Assembly (NCBI GenBank): GCA_934373455.1
Contig: CAKRON010000088.1
Span: 1-10,484 of the forward strand
Length of the DNA: 10,484 bases
Direction: 5' to 3'
Source: an uncultured Marvinbryantia sp.
GTDB lineage: Bacteria; Bacillota; Clostridia; Lachnospirales; Lachnospiraceae
Part shown: piece after piece, positions 2,687 through 10,484 of the stretch
Layout: every line of letters begins with the position of its first letter
Position numbering within the stretch: the stretch's first letter is position 1
The notes under the pieces: model-generated
Seen by the model: only the letters and a program-made list of their open reading frames with translations
Databases searched by the model: none
What the model was told of the DNA's origin: nothing
Made by a program: the position numbers and the translations under genes

Positions 2687-3103
2687 CTATTTAATGACGC
2701 CCTGCTCTGAACTGTGTCTCATTCGATTGATTGCTCTTGCCAGAGATGCCTGTGTCGTCTTATACTCTCGAATGCTCTGCTTCTGGCGCATTTCTTCCAA
2801 AGCACGGTCTCTTGCCTCTCGTGCTCTGACAGCATCGATCTCTTCCGGAAGTTCCGCAGATTCTACAATAGCTGTCACACGGTTGTTGGCTGCCTGTACC
2901 ACTCCTACACCGGATACTGCGGTTACCCAGGTGCCGTCTTCCTTCTGAAAACGGATCTCTCCTGCCTTTAAAGCAAGTACCATCTCTTCATGATGCGCCA
3001 TAAATGCTTTTTCTCCATCGGTTGCCGTTACCACCACAACCGATACCTGTCCTTTGAAGAACACTTTGTTACTGGTAATGATTTTCAAAAAAAATGTAGC
3101 CAT
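2687..3103 (-). CDS. atpC: F1Fo ATP synthase epsilon subunit
   Basis: A 138-residue central-stalk subunit that binds gamma and the c-ring and can inhibit ATP hydrolysis. The N-terminal beta-sandwich spans about residues 1-84. The two-helix C-terminal domain (about 88-132) carries IDAVRA (89-94), the (I/L)DxxRA motif linked to ATP binding in bacterial epsilon subunits, and ends with an ASLARAINRMR segment typical of the family. The usual GxxGILPGH turn is degenerate: it reads GEKAFMAHHEE (30-40). The start ATG lies 6 nt after the atpD stop, with AAGGA overlapping the end of atpD. It is the last gene of the atp operon and is followed by the long palindrome at 2571-2669. Confidence 0.93.
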   Translation of the reverse strand: MATFFLKIITSNKVFFKGQVSVVVVTATDGEKAFMAHHEEMVLALKAGEIRFQKEDGTWVTAVSGVGVVQAANNRVTAIVESAELPEEIDAVRAREARDRALEEMRQKQSIREYKTTQASLARAINRMRHSSEQGVIK

Positions 3104-3109
3104 AGAAAG

Positions 3110-5406
<2,297 letters not shown>

Positions 5407-5417
5407 TGGATCACCAC

Positions 5418-7451
5418 CTATACTTCTTTATTCCAGACCTGATCTCTGTACTCTACTGCTGCTTTCACAATCTGTTCACGCAGACTGTCACTGAGCTGAC
5501 CTGTTGTTTCCAGTTCACGGATAACTGACGGCTGGCTCTTTGCAAAGTATTCCAGCATTCCAGTACGGAATTCTCTGATTTTCTCTACCGGCACATCAAT
5601 CATCACTTTTCCGGTTGCTGCACACAACATAATAACCTGTTGAGGCATGGAGAATGGTTTACACAGCGGCTGTTTCAAAAGTTCCATCAATCCTTTTCCA
5701 TATTTCAGCTGTTCCACTGTAGCCGGATCCAGATCAGATGAGAACTGTGTGAATACTTCCATTTCACGATACTGTGCCAGATCAATACGGATACTTCCGG
5801 CTGCTTTCTTCATTGCCTTTGTCTGGGCTGCACCACCTACACGGGATACAGAAAGACCTACGTTTACAGCTGGTCGCATACCTGAGAAGAATAAGTCACT
5901 TTCCAGGAAAATCTGACCATCTGTGATAGAAATAACGTTGGTTGGGATATATGCAGATACATCCCCTGCCTGTGTTTCAATAATCGGCAATGCCGTAATA
6001 GAACCGCCTCCTGCTTTTTCATTCAGACGGCTGGAGCGTTCCAGAAGTCTGGAATGCAGATAGAATACGTCTCCCGGATAAGCTTCACGTCCAGGTGAAC
6101 GTTCCAGAAGCAGAGACAATGCACGATAAGCAACCGCATGCTTTGACAAATCATCATATACAATCAGAACATCTTTTCCCTGATACATAAAGTATTCTGC
6201 CAGTGCTGTTCCGGAATAAGGCGCCATATACTGAAGCGGTGCCGGATCTGATGCGGTAGAAACCACAACGGTTGTATATTCCATGGCATCATGTGCTTTT
6301 AATGTATGAACGATTTTTGCAACAGTAGACGCTTTCTGACCAATGGCTACATAAATACATTTTACATCTTTGCCTTTCTGATTCAGAATAGCATCAATTG
6401 CGATGGAAGTCTTACCTGTCTGTCTGTCACCGATAATCAGTTCTCGCTGGCCACGGCCGATTGGGAACATAGAGTCAATAGACAGAATTCCTGTTTCCAA
6501 TGGTACAGATACGGATTTACGATCCACGATACCAGGTGCCTCATTTTCAATCGGACGGTAATCACTGGATGGAATATCGCCTTCTCCATCAACCGGAGCA
6601 CCAAGAGCATTGATGACACGTCCCAGGAACTGATCCCCTACAGGGATACCGGCTTTCCGTCCTGTTCTCATAACTCTGCTGCCTTCACGGATTTCACTGT
6701 CACTTCCAAACAGAATACATCCGATTTCATCACGTTTAATGTCCTGAACCATACCTTTGATTCCATTATCAAAAATAACAATCTCACCATACATGGCATG
6801 GTCAATACCATCAATATTTACGATACCGTCACCTACAGATTTTACAGTACCGACTTCTTTATCTTTCGCTTCCAGATCAAAGTCTTCTATCTCACTCTGT
6901 AAAATTGAGATAATACCTTCCAGTGTTTCGGAATGCTTCTCTCCTTTGTTCTCACCAAGAATCTTATCTGTCAGCTGTCTGATTCTTCCTTCTGTGGACC
7001 AGTCATACTCTTTGTTACCTATTGAAAGAACAAATCCACCACCCAGACTCTCCTCTTTTTCGCAGACAAGTTCAATGTTTTCAGATCCACTTTCTTTTTT
7101 TACAAAGTCTCTGATACCTTCCAGCTGGCTTTCTGATGGCTCCGTTACATATTTCAGAATTGCACGTTCTTTTCCAGTTTTTTTCCACTGTGTTTCTTTA
7201 TATGCCTTGCATACTTCCGGGAATAATTCAATATCCTGATCGTCACACATCACCTTAATCATGTCACGGATCTGAGATGGAAAAATTTTATCAATTGCTC
7301 TGTGTTTTCCGGCCAGATCTGCTGCAGGATTACGGAACTGTTCCATTAATACCGGTACCGTCTGGAAGATATCAAGGGCCTGCTCTATCACATCTTCAGG
7401 AATCTCCAATTCCTTTAACATGGTTGCATACTTTTCTACTGCCTGTATCAT
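5418..7451 (-). CDS. atpHA: Fused F1Fo ATP synthase delta-alpha subunit (AtpH-AtpA)
   Basis: One uninterrupted 677-codon frame covers both delta and alpha. Residues 1-164 are delta (OSCP): an N-terminal helical domain with YATMLKELE and [18 protein letters not shown], then the C-terminal signature [25 protein letters not shown] (136-160, quoted in part). After about ten linker residues, alpha runs from about 174 to 677 (504 residues, a normal length). It has [11 protein letters not shown] (200-210), P-loop GDRQTGKT (341-348), Walker B LIVYDD (429-434), the region [20 protein letters not shown], and the arginine finger R537 in SVSRVGG. The ATG has AAAGGAG 8 nt upstream. The junction keeps an AAAGGAG sequence (6941-6947), but no ATG, GTG or TTG follows in frame at a usable distance. 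F1 normally holds three alpha and one delta, so a pure fusion would alter stoichiometry. Each half is certain; whether the cell uses the fusion intact is unknown. Confidence 0.95.
6941..6947 (-). other. Shine-Dalgarno sequence retained at the delta-alpha junction
   Basis: AAAGGAG lies inside codons 169-171 (K-G-E) of the fused gene, where a separate atpA would carry its ribosome binding site. At 5-8 nt spacing the in-frame codons are CAT and TCC, which are not start codons. The first possible non-AUG start is CTG (6921-6923), 17 nt away, which is too far for efficient use. It looks like a scar of the ancestral atpA start region, or a site for weak internal initiation. Confidence 0.6.
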
Positions 7452-7478: not shown

Positions 7479-7952
7479 TTACTGCTGACGCAGGAACTCA
7501 TCATACAGGGCACGGTCGTTATCCGTTCCTTCTTTTTCTCCTGCCACACGGGCTGCTGCTGTCACTACCATATCACGTACCGCAGTCTCTGCCTGCTGCA
7601 TAATTTTCTTCTTTTCCTGCTCTGCATCGCTGCATGCTTTTTCCACAATTGTTCCTGCTTTCTTCTGAGCTTCCTCTACAATACGGCTGTATTCGCCTGC
7701 AGCCTCTTCTCTTGCCTTGGTAACAATCTGTGCTTTTTCCTGCTCTGCATTCTTAATAGATGCTTCATATTCTTCCTTACTCTTTAAGGCACTGTTCTTT
7801 GCTTCTTCCGCAGCAGACAGTCTTGCATCCTCTTCTCTCTGACGTTTTTCCAGAATTTCATTTACTGGTTTGAATAAAAATCTTTTCATCAGAACATACA
7901 GAATTAACAGGTTAATTACTGTAAATAATAAATTCCAGTCTAATCTTAACAT
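7479..7952 (-). CDS. atpF: F1Fo ATP synthase b subunit (peripheral stalk)
   Basis: A 157-residue stator subunit. One membrane helix lies near the N-terminus (about 5-22, WNLLFTVINLLILYVLMKRF), followed by the conserved LFKPVNEILEKR (26-37). From about residue 38 to 135 the protein is a highly charged, alanine-rich coiled coil (for example SAAEEAKNSALKSKEEYEAS) that would dimerise and reach up to delta. The family usually has 155-170 residues, so the length is normal. The start is ATG 7950-7952. An AGGAAGG sequence lies about 14 nt upstream, rather far, with AGG closer in; no other start is available, because an in-frame stop lies nearby. A 46-nt gap separates it from atpE and a 27-nt gap separates it from the delta-alpha gene. 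Confidence 0.95.
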   Translation of the reverse strand: MLRLDWNLLFTVINLLILYVLMKRFLFKPVNEILEKRQREEDARLSAAEEAKNSALKSKEEYEASIKNAEQEKAQIVTKAREEAAGEYSRIVEEAQKKAGTIVEKACSDAEQEKKKIMQQAETAVRDMVVTAAARVAGEKEGTDNDRALYDEFLRQQ

Positions 7953-7998: not shown

Positions 7999-8223
7999 TT
8001 AACCAAGGAACATAATACATAAAAGTGCAATAACGAAACCGTAAATAGCAGTTGCTTCGGCCAGTGCACAACCAAGAAGAAGTAACTTTGTGATCTTTCC
8101 TTCTGCTTCCGGCTGACGTGCTACAGCGTCAGTTGCTTTACCTGTTGCGATTCCGATACCAATACCTGCTCCAATACCTGTCAGTACAGCGATACCTGCT
8201 CCAATTGCGATTAATGTACTCAT
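7999..8223 (-). CDS. atpE: F1Fo ATP synthase c subunit (rotor ring)
   Basis: A 74-residue hairpin of two membrane helices; many copies form the rotor ring in the membrane. Helix 1 is glycine-rich ([13 protein letters not shown], 18-30), the polar loop is ARQPEAEGK (35-43), and helix 2 carries the ion-binding glutamate E56 in [10 protein letters not shown]. Set against the sodium-binding ring of Ilyobacter tartaricus, E56 and Y61 match E65 and Y70, but Q32 is replaced by I23 and S66 by A57. These losses argue for proton rather than sodium coupling; that is inference from known ligand sets. The ATG has AAAGGAG 10 nt upstream. Confidence 0.97.
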
Positions 8224-8251: not shown

Positions 8252-8923
8252 TTATGCTTCTTTAATAAATAATGATGTCAGGAATACAAATACATATGCC
8301 TGAATCAGTCCGTCAAAAATATCAAAATAAAAACTGAATGGAAGTGGAAGTACAACTGGTACCAGCTGTTTGATCAGTTCCATAATTACAAATGCACCAA
8401 GGACATTACCAAATAATCGCATACACAATGACAATGGACGGATAAAAATCTCCAGAACATTGATCGGTGCCACAATTGCGATTGGTTCTGCAAAGTTTTT
8501 GCACCAGCCCTTAACTCCTCTTTTTTGAATTCCTGCAGCCTCGATCAATATGATACTCATGACAGAAAGTGCAGCTGTCACATTCAGATCTTTTGTCGGT
8601 GGCTTTACTCCAAATAAACCAATGACATTCGATACTCCGATGTAAAGCAGAACCGTTACCAGATATGGTATAAACTTACGTCCTTCTTCACCGATCATAC
8701 CCTCGACCATACTGTTCAGTTTTACGACAATGAACTCTGCGGCCGCCTGTCTTTTGCTGATATGGTCTACTTTCAAGTTATGCGTCATGAAAATAGCAAA
8801 TATCAAAAGGATTCCCATAATCACCCAGGTAATTACCGTAGATTCTGCAATCCCAATGCTGCCGATCTTAAAGACCGTCTCACAGGTAAGTTCTTCCTGC
8901 AGCCTTGTCGCCAGGTCACTCAT
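8252..8923 (-). CDS. atpB: F1Fo ATP synthase a subunit (ion channel)
   Basis: A 223-residue membrane subunit that holds the two half-channels against the c-ring. The essential arginine is R169 in the motif [13 protein letters not shown]; the preceding EIFIRPLSL and the downstream [11 protein letters not shown] (210-220) belong to the same two family helices. The conserved [16 protein letters not shown] (106-121) is present. Five to six hydrophobic stretches can be seen, near residues 28-47, 86-105, 114-130, 147-160, 170-195 and 203-222. The length is at the lower end of the family (about 220-270). It is the first gene of the operon; no atpI or atpZ precedes it. The ATG lies 5 nt after AGAGGTG, and a good promoter sits about 55 nt upstream. 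Confidence 0.96.
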
Positions 8924-9158: not shown

Positions 9159-9944
9159 CTATCCTTTCGTATACCTTGACAAAAACTGTCTGGTACGTTC
9201 TTCTTTCGGCTGTTCTATTACTTCTCTTGCTTTTCCCTGTTCTACAATAAATCCTTCATCCATAAATATAATTTCATCAGCCACATCTCTGGCAAAAGCC
9301 ATCTCATGGGTGACAATGATCATTGTCGTCTTCTGGCCTGCAAGACCCCGGATTACTTTCAATACTTCACCGGTCAGTTCCGGATCTAATGCTGATGTCG
9401 GTTCATCAAAGCAGAGAATGTCCGGTTTTAACGCCAGTGCTCTTGCGATCGCAACACGCTGCTGCTGCCCACCGGATAATTGATGCGGATAATGATTTTC
9501 TCTTTGATCCAATCCCATTTTCTTTAGCAGTGCTTCCCCATGTCCATGAATTTCTTCCAGAATTGCCTTCTTATTCTGATTATAATCCGGACGTTCCTTT
9601 GCAAGAAGCTGTTCCGCCAACATTACATTTTCCAGTGCTGTATACTGTGGAAATAAATTAAACGACTGAAACACCATTCCAAAATGAAGACGTTTTTTTC
9701 TCAGTTCTCTTTCGTTCTGGCTTGCTCCTCTGGATGCATCATAAAGTGTCTCACCTTTAACTGTAATGCTTCCTTTATCCGGTGTTTCAAGAAAATTCAG
9801 ACAACGAAGCAATGTTGTCTTTCCGGAACCGGAGGAACCAATAATCGCCAGAGCATTTCCCTCATCCATGGAAAAGCTGACATCTTTTAAAACCTGGGTA
9901 CTTCCAAAATGTTTTTCTATATTTCTCACTTCTAATATTGCCAT
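9159..9944 (-). CDS. glnQ: Polar amino acid ABC transporter ATPase (GlnQ/TcyC type)
   Basis: A 261-residue nucleotide-binding subunit of a polar amino acid importer on the cytoplasmic face of the membrane. All ABC motifs are intact: Walker A GSSGSGKT (36-43), the Q-loop in MVFQSFNLF (Q93), signature LSGGQQQR (156-163), Walker B ILCFDEPTSALDP (176-188) and the switch histidine in VTHEM (H213). MVFQSFNLFPQYTALENV is typical of the glutamine/arginine/cystine subfamily. Two charged insertions (about 70-86 and 117-134) make it longer than the usual 240-250 residues. The start is ATG 9944, because AGGGGG lies 8 nt upstream; a TTG two codons earlier sits only 3 nt from that site. It lies downstream of its permease in one operon. 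The substrate cannot be read from sequence, so the symbol is by subfamily only. Confidence 0.9.
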   Translation of the reverse strand: MAILEVRNIEKHFGSTQVLKDVSFSMDEGNALAIIGSSGSGKTTLLRCLNFLETPDKGSITVKGETLYDASRGASQNERELRKKRLHFGMVFQSFNLFPQYTALENVMLAEQLLAKERPDYNQNKKAILEEIHGHGEALLKKMGLDQRENHYPHQLSGGQQQRVAIARALALKPDILCFDEPTSALDPELTGEVLKVIRGLAGQKTTMIIVTHEMAFARDVADEIIFMDEGFIVEQGKAREVIEQPKEERTRQFLSRYTKG

Positions 9945-9956
9945 TTCCAAAGCCCC

Positions 9957-10013
9957 CTATCTGAAATAATCCAGTCTTTTTTCAATGTAATTAAATAATA
10001 ATGTAAGAACTCA
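9957..10013 (-). other. In-frame TGA followed by the untranslated C-terminal tail of the permease
   Basis: After TGA (10011-10013) the permease frame stays open for 17 codons, VLTLLFNYIEKRLDYFR, and ends at TAG (9957-9959). This tail is what amino acid permeases of the HisM family carry at their C-terminus: the end of the last membrane helix plus a basic stretch. The TAG lies next to the glnQ ribosome binding site, which is normal operon spacing. The TGA therefore looks like a recent nonsense change, for example from GGA (glycine). Confidence 0.75.
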
Positions 10014-10484
10014 TACAAAAATCAGATAAAACAGTCCCGTATAGAACAATGGCCATACCAGACCTGCTGATTTCATAAAAGAGTATCCTCTTTGTGTCAG
10101 TTCCTGCGCTGCAATAATTCTGGCAAGGGAAGTATCCTTTACCAGTGTAATAATCTCATTCGACATTGGCGGAACAACACGCTTCACCATCTGAAGCAAT
10201 GTGATCTTAAAGAAGATCTGGCTTCTGGTCATACCCAGTACCTGCCCGGCCTCTCGCTGCCCTGCCGGAATACCTTCAATACCGCCGCGAAAGATTACAG
10301 AAAAATAACAGGCATAATTGATGGCAAATGCTACTACTGTCGCAGTAATACGTCCTGCCTCATTACCTCCCCAGATATTATGTCCCAGCCACATACCAGG
10401 TCCATAAAAAATAATAATCAACTGCAGCATCAGAGGTGTTCCTCTAATGATCCATACCAGTATCTGGATCAGATAGCTGAGTGG
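10011..10484 (-). CDS. Polar amino acid ABC transporter permease, partial, with early stop
   Basis: The frame is open to the right edge of the window, so the N-terminus is missing; 157 codons remain. RGTPLMLQ (residues 14-21 of the visible part) is the usual family motif in an early membrane segment. The EAA loop that docks on the ATPase reads EAGQVLGMTRSQIFFKITLLQ in outline and is intact. Several hydrophobic helices are visible. The family is the HisM/GlnP type inner-membrane subunit for amino acid import, and the adjacent ATPase belongs to the same system. The frame stops at TGA 10011-10013, 17 codons before the likely ancestral end. Losing the last turn of the final helix and the basic tail might be tolerated, so the gene may or may not work. 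A sequencing error is the main alternative. Confidence 0.88.
   Translation of the reverse strand, partial: PLSYLIQILVWIIRGTPLMLQLIIIFYGPGMWLGHNIWGGNEAGRITATVVAFAINYACYFSVIFRGGIEGIPAGQREAGQVLGMTRSQIFFKITLLQMVKRVVPPMSNEIITLVKDTSLARIIAAQELTQRGYSFMKSAGLVWPLFYTGLFYLIFV

Follow-up and report, generated by a model that had tools for sequence, protein, structure and literature searches.

Within the 10,484 nucleotides analysed here (the window), ORF translation identified a single open reading frame on the minus strand (5418-7451, ATG start, 677 aa) that encodes a complete delta subunit of an F-ATPase, with both of its domains, followed by a short linker and a complete alpha subunit. This delta-alpha fusion is confirmed by the ORF itself, by Pfam and NCBIfam matches and by its conservation in relatives, and it is widespread among related bacteria. 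Judging from sequence, its product is probably an intact delta-alpha polypeptide that would place three delta subunits in each F1.

A preliminary description of this DNA had claimed one frame holding both delta and alpha at 5418-7451, and the ORF, Pfam and TIGR00962 agree in bearing this out; the split points that it gave (residues 1-164 and 174-677) were correct to within a few residues. Pfam OSCP was matched at residues 4-163 with 65.5 bits (cut-off 22.3), spanning positions 8-171 of the 172 in profile PF00213, and thus represents a near-full delta match. The delta N-terminal domain (residues 1-92; 7176-7451, minus strand) was recognized by a domain HMM with 122 bits at 2-93 of the stop-to-stop frame, and is further outlined by six helices in the structure model and by its dN/dS. 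A second HMM matched the delta C-terminal domain (residues 96-164; 6960-7166, minus strand) with 105 bits at 97-165 of the stop-to-stop frame. The linker (residues 165-177; 6921-6959, minus strand), delimited by reading its codons, shows low model confidence and the weakest constraint in relatives. Alpha occupies residues 178-677 (5421-6920, minus strand), where Pfam, NCBIfam and the model outline an N-terminal helix followed by barrel, nucleotide-binding and C-terminal domains; the Pfam matches were ATP-synt_ab_N at 199-264, ATP-synt_ab at 321-536 and ATP-synt_ab_C at 543-667. NCBIfam atpA (TIGR00962) scored 760 bits against a cut-off of 484.45, identifying an alpha subunit of the F-type. Two other assignments were rejected: the profile for the N-ATPase (alternate F1F0; TIGR03324) gave 607.6 bits, below its cut-off of 750.5, and the protein is not a b-delta fusion, b being encoded by its own ORF at 7479-7952.

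The atp operon around the fusion is otherwise ordinary. Its order is a-c-b-[delta-alpha]-gamma-beta-epsilon, with the other subunits encoded on the minus strand by separate ORFs that have Pfam matches of their own, namely atpB for subunit a (8252-8923, PF00119), atpE for subunit c (7999-8223, 74 aa, PF00137), atpF for subunit b (7479-7952, 157 aa, PF00430), atpG for gamma (4507-5406, PF00231), atpD for beta (3110-4504, ATP-synt_ab domains and operon position) and atpC for epsilon (2687-3103, PF02823 and PF00401). No minus-strand promoter or terminator site was found within 5418-7451 that would lie between delta and alpha, in a scan that overall was no richer in sites than shuffled sequence, and no RNA family reached the gathering threshold in the whole window. 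A plasmid search with the window matched only 3% of it, corresponding to the atpD stretch in a Bacteroides record. The flanks (403-1910, 1980-2453 and 9159-10430) were also ordinary: they hold pdxS- and pdxT-like genes on the plus strand and, on the minus strand, genes for a small multidrug-export family protein, a transport permease and the ATPase of an ABC transporter.

It had been proposed in the preliminary description that related genomes be searched for single proteins matching both OSCP and ATP-synt_ab, and such proteins are plentiful. A protein search with residues 1-200 (E <= 0.001), in which candidate length was fixed by the entire fusion, returned 216 fusion-length proteins. Among the matches listed, all 120 of 120 combine OSCP with ATP-synt_ab domains and most have a length of 677 aa; identity is 80-100% over the matched part, and one entry represents 450 contigs. 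Where names were given by the sources, these proteins are called simply alpha or ATP synthase subunit alpha, so that the fusion is hidden in annotation. Among the best 80 of 334 loci, collected from one-per-species genomes with two peptide patterns, delta and alpha lie in one ORF in 61 and are split by in-frame stops in 17, while in the remaining two (L017, L078) delta is joined to the start of alpha and a break lies inside alpha; owing to the way in which these loci were found, the shares are not prevalences. Named isolates with the fusion include Oribacterium sinus DSM 17245, Caproiciproducens galactitolivorans YR-4 and Clostridium fessum SNUG30386.

The reading that an assembly or sequencing error erased the stop between two genes is given practically no chance and is already refuted by the relatives. 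It could appeal to the split loci, where exactly one in-frame stop separates the genes in 15 of 17 (two in L013 and L060), but the identical fusion recurs in the 216 proteins and 61 loci above and, besides the stop, the alpha start with its ribosome-site spacing is gone too.

Wider sampling revealed a second form of the fusion. Family-wide, 299 genomes were sampled and 250 of them gave some match; among these there were at least 21 full-length open fusions and at least 32 open fusions that matched only from the delta C-terminal domain onward, with two further rows cut by contig ends left out of these counts; seven additional rows that had been flagged with stops (L150-L156) were read as open from the C-terminal domain onward. 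Members of the same group with a free delta are also common family-wide, and in all 20 of the 20 rows fetched the genes are split, with alpha in a different frame from delta. Across the class, 391 genomes were sampled, of which 77 gave some match, and 33 open fusions were listed, sorted by frame length into eight of at least 660 aa, 24 of 570-659 aa and one shorter. These length classes were checked on 20 of the 33 loci, which were read directly and kept outside the trees (L179-L198): the N-terminal domain was present in six of six long frames and absent from 14 of 14 short ones. Within the family of genome G019, the fusion was found in 32 of 150 genomes (10 long, 19 short and three shorter still). 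Four of the loci read directly (L185-L188) are more distant truncated fusions, with alpha 56-60% identical and linkers that are longer and different, and their fusion may perhaps have a separate origin.

The truncated form was characterized on 38 loci that had matched from the C-terminal domain only (L119-L156). The delta C-terminal domain and the N-terminus of alpha share one ORF in all 38, and the N-terminal domain profile gave no match in any of these loci when compared with every frame of at least 30 codons. In all 37 truncated loci where b is a separate gene, the C-terminal domain follows the stop codon of b after -2 to 99 nt (median 22); the corresponding distance is 262-335 nt in each of the 78 full-length loci, so that the truncated ones have no room for an N-terminal domain. 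A start codon stands immediately ahead of the C-terminal domain in several of them (L071, L120, L128, L150 and L154 among others). Pfam was run on seven truncated members: five match OSCP only from position 97-104 onward (L153 below the cut-off), L121 has no reported OSCP, and in L137 the match (profile 54-171) extends into the end of b. The alphas of L121 and L074 are 96.5% identical, and a single in-frame gap of 243 nt (81 codons) removes the N-terminal domain from the former. The window itself retains this domain (residues 1-92) and so does not belong to the delta-deltaN-alpha type, with which it does share the joining of a delta C-terminal domain to alpha in a single chain.

Of the 38 genomes with the truncated form, 22 encode a free full-length delta elsewhere, and one more (G094) has it as two pieces on two contigs; another delta was not found in 15 of the 38, the completeness of the genomes not being stated. 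Other assemblies also contain truncated proteins of 577 aa, including one that occurs on eight contigs, and no named cultured species appeared in the protein searches made from L153 (residues 1-80, one relative) and L071 (residues 1-90, nine relatives). Locus L137 (G087:C33:98500-106500) carries a 787-aa open frame (3628-5989) of b, delta C-terminal domain and alpha, seen in one genome; such a triple fusion would tie b to alpha in number. Another set of truncated fusions (L138-L149, L151-L153) is set apart by a long N-terminal extension of subunit c (frames of 117-159 aa) and by a subunit a that is just 23-30% identical to that of the window, and L132 and L133 are similar.

Changes between these states were examined on an alpha-only tree (IQ-TREE quick) of 143 rows, comprising 57 full fusions, 43 truncated fusions, 36 split loci and seven canonical alphas. 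In an earlier tree, near-copies of at least 93% identity and the same state had been collapsed (154 to 124 rows); the 143-row tree added 19 of 20 further split loci, L167 being too short. L017, L034, L064, L075 and L078 were left out of the trees, their alpha being short or broken. The canonical alphas sit on a separate branch (100*, the star marking good support). The tree has weaknesses: of its 140 inner branches 53 are open, and 11 rows end in long branches. The preliminary description had named a stop followed by a new start at the junction as evidence against a fusion if seen in close relatives. This arrangement does exist in other branches (36 of 136 in-clade rows); the five rows nearest to the window are all full-length fusions.

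The N-terminal domain is absent from 43 of 100 fused rows and from none of 36 split rows. Its presence requires at least 17 changes on the best tree, five of them forced by starred branches, and 18 when only losses are allowed; placing the truncated rows in one clade was rejected (AU test, p 7.6e-5). Fused and split states changed at least six times (seven for the split label alone, three of these forced), indicating that the fusion is not essential to the ATPase. When fusion and domain loss were compared in a paired test, two independent pairs were available on starred branches (six on all branches), too few for significance to be reached; the lack of domain loss among the 36 split rows therefore no more than suggests a link between loss of the domain and the fused state.

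The preliminary description had named three outcomes for a working fusion, namely three deltas per F1, cleavage or separate production of alpha. This is the right set, and the last of the three is disfavoured by the codons at the junction. In split relatives, the site of the linker holds the delta stop, a ribosome site and the alpha start. The window keeps a purine run at this place (AAAGGAGAG, 6939-6947, minus strand) that is a good ribosome-site match, which is perhaps a relic. An internal start that also yields alpha alone, and so restores the normal stoichiometry, could draw on this run and on the CTG, ATT and ATC codons that follow it; however, no in-frame ATG, GTG or TTG occurs between codons 68 and 220 of the window fusion. 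The same region was surveyed in the tree rows, from the delta end to the tenth residue of the alpha helix according to the best domain hit. Some ATG, GTG or TTG is present in 55 of 100 fused rows and absent in 45, yet at 0.039 per codon against 0.055 for the whole gene such codons are not enriched. A start stands behind a ribosome-site run of five bases in three of 100 fused rows and behind one of six or more in none, whereas in all 17 of 17 in-frame split rows the start occupies a constant alignment position, preceded by a run of five to nine. With no start in the window and no strong-site start in 100 fused rows, separate production of alpha is improbable; most likely alpha is not translated on its own, and the internal start is regarded as very unlikely.

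Constraint on the parts of the protein was estimated from 19 pairs of full-length fusions, with synonymous change near saturation in many of them and the window in none. Pooled dN/dS was lowest in alpha (0.065), followed by the C-terminal domain (0.11), the N-terminal domain (0.16) and the linker (0.38), and the ratio of N-terminal to C-terminal domain distances was 1.14-1.17 in full fusions against 0.96-1.17 in split rows. Neither measure gave any sign of selection being relaxed on the N-terminal domain in full-length fusions. As the domain is not decaying, it is still used in these proteins, which speaks against the view that the tether makes it superfluous in every case.

The linker is thus the least constrained stretch, and it lies in the part of the window model (residues 166-195) that has low confidence, so that it could be exposed. 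This would suit a scenario in which one chain is made and a protease cuts the linker, leaving an F1 of three alphas and one delta, with the surplus delta degraded. Such a cut is considered unlikely. Linker length varies from 6 to 17 residues in full-length and from 3 to 20 in truncated rows (HMM borders), no shared linker motif was seen in the alignments, and cleavage in the 43 fused rows that have lost the N-terminal domain would leave a C-terminal domain with no known hold on alpha. Cleavage is hard to reconcile with these many fused relatives, in which a free delta would be missing its means of gripping alpha.

The model of the window protein was of moderate quality (pLDDT 73.6, pTM 0.58); it shows the N-terminal domain as six helices, then the C-terminal domain, a linker placed with little certainty and the helix of the alpha subunit at 178-195; its best PDB chain was 9jc1_I (TM 0.53). 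For the truncated protein L071, a template-free model (pLDDT 79.9) had as its top three PDB chains 9jc1_I, K and J (TM 0.88, 0.88 and 0.85), with rmsd of 3.3-3.4 Å over 570-572 columns. Being single-chain models, these carry no information on assembly.

Textbook F-ATPases have one delta and one stalk, and three alphas are required per F1. Where the fusion is the source of both subunits, three alphas bring three deltas with them. We infer the absence of cleavage, three deltas per F1, a role of the link as a tether and a number of stalks between one and three. Under this proposal, a single intact delta-alpha chain would supply both subunits of the F-ATPase, and every F1 would hold three deltas, the C-terminal domain of each tethered by the short linker to the N-terminus of its own alpha and, in principle, capable of binding a b dimer. 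The single central pocket of the crown could take one of the three N-terminal domains, with the other two hanging alongside. The covalent link would replace the N-terminal domain in keeping delta on alpha, and the domain would be dispensable because the link does the holding job. Its repeated loss in fused relatives would then have given rise to natural delta-deltaN-alpha enzymes like the design of Ueno et al. 2025 (PMC12229609).

How many stalks such an enzyme carries separates two readings that share this proposal. In the first, three fused deltas are present, yet only one stalk is allowed by the N-terminal domain that sits on the axis, leaving two deltas idle; the fusion would be neutral, with only the truncated relatives differing. 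It is compatible with the intact chain described above and differs from the bolder second reading in stalk number. The argument in PMC12229609 that the N-terminal domain restricts the stalks to one speaks for it, as do the selection on this domain in full-length fusions and the interchange of fused and split states, and it is given a considerable chance, a little short of even. Against it, nothing in the sequence forbids further b dimers, since each alpha carries its own docking domain, and relatives have lost the N-terminal domain repeatedly.

The second reading is put forward tentatively and rated as less likely than not: that the operon belongs to a large natural group of F-ATPases in Clostridia with a crown three-fold in delta and room for as many as three b dimers and for additional a subunits, in which the full-length fusion was a stepping stone, the N-terminal domain was lost later many times and the enzyme of the window could itself run more than one stalk. 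If true, the proton-to-ATP ratio could be raised by more stators instead of more c subunits. In this natural and widespread set of enzymes delta has to be produced as often as alpha, and its split, full-length-fused and truncated-fused members occur next to one another, the closest case differing by just a few percent. The questions that this raises are what sets the number of stalks, and whether several stators serve to make ATP at low proton-motive force, as in the engineered enzyme of PMC12229609.

Several of the genomes hold a conventional enzyme in addition. A second, free delta was present in nine of 19 genomes examined (G001, G003-G007, G009, G014, G017), and the eight loci fetched (L081-L088) proved to be canonical F-ATPase operons. 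These have the same families as the fused group, with b, delta and alpha adjacent and in the same order, but delta and alpha are free and alpha belongs to the separate branch of the tree noted above. In the c-subunit signature, atpE of the window has Ile at the site where the canonical second operon carries Gln. Among the canonical rows with a readable c subunit, Q was found in five of six and E in one of six; by locus, Q is given for L081, L083, L085 and L087 and E for L086 and L088. In the fused group, I was found in 32 of 32 full and 11 of 12 truncated fusions, many rows being unread. By c-signature rules, Q or E against I would suggest one Na+ and one H+ enzyme per cell.

Fusion of a stalk subunit with delta is also found in the mycobacterial-type b-delta protein (PDB 9vkp chain d, 'ATP synthase subunit b-delta'), where the partner of delta is b rather than alpha. 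A delta-alpha fusion without the N-terminal domain is already known, both engineered and noted in nature, from PMC12229609. In the literature covered, which included few subscription journals and some papers in part, full-length delta-alpha fusions, their spread in Clostridia, repeated loss of the domain after fusion and a b-delta-alpha frame were not described, and by titles no work on multi-stalk F-ATPases was found besides PMC12229609. As natural delta-deltaN-alpha cases, that paper names Acidaminococcus fermentans and two UniProt entries with similar features. A. fermentans has, like the window, a delta-alpha gene fusion in the atp operon but, by that description, its N-terminal domain is missing. 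In the text of the paper covered here, split sister lineages do not come up.

As described in the same paper (Ueno et al. 2025, PMC12229609), the delta N-terminal domain lies on the crown axis, where it binds two of the three alpha N-termini, leaving the third to the C-terminal region; the b dimer is also bound by delta. In the Bacillus PS3 FoF1 built there, the N-terminal domain was deleted and the remainder of delta fused to alpha, giving an enzyme with up to three stalks and three a subunits (two on average by gels) and an H+/ATP of 5.8. The preliminary description had called the join spatially plausible, and this engineered fusion of the delta C-terminal domain to alpha, which was built, works and has been solved (PDB 9jc1), upholds that view. 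In the engineered protein, as in the relatives, the delta C-terminal domain is fused to the alpha N-terminus in one chain, and residues 10-574 of the 577 of L071 align with engineered chain 9jc1_I. The PS3 design lacks the N-terminal domain that the window retains, while the relatives L119-L156, also without it, fit the design.
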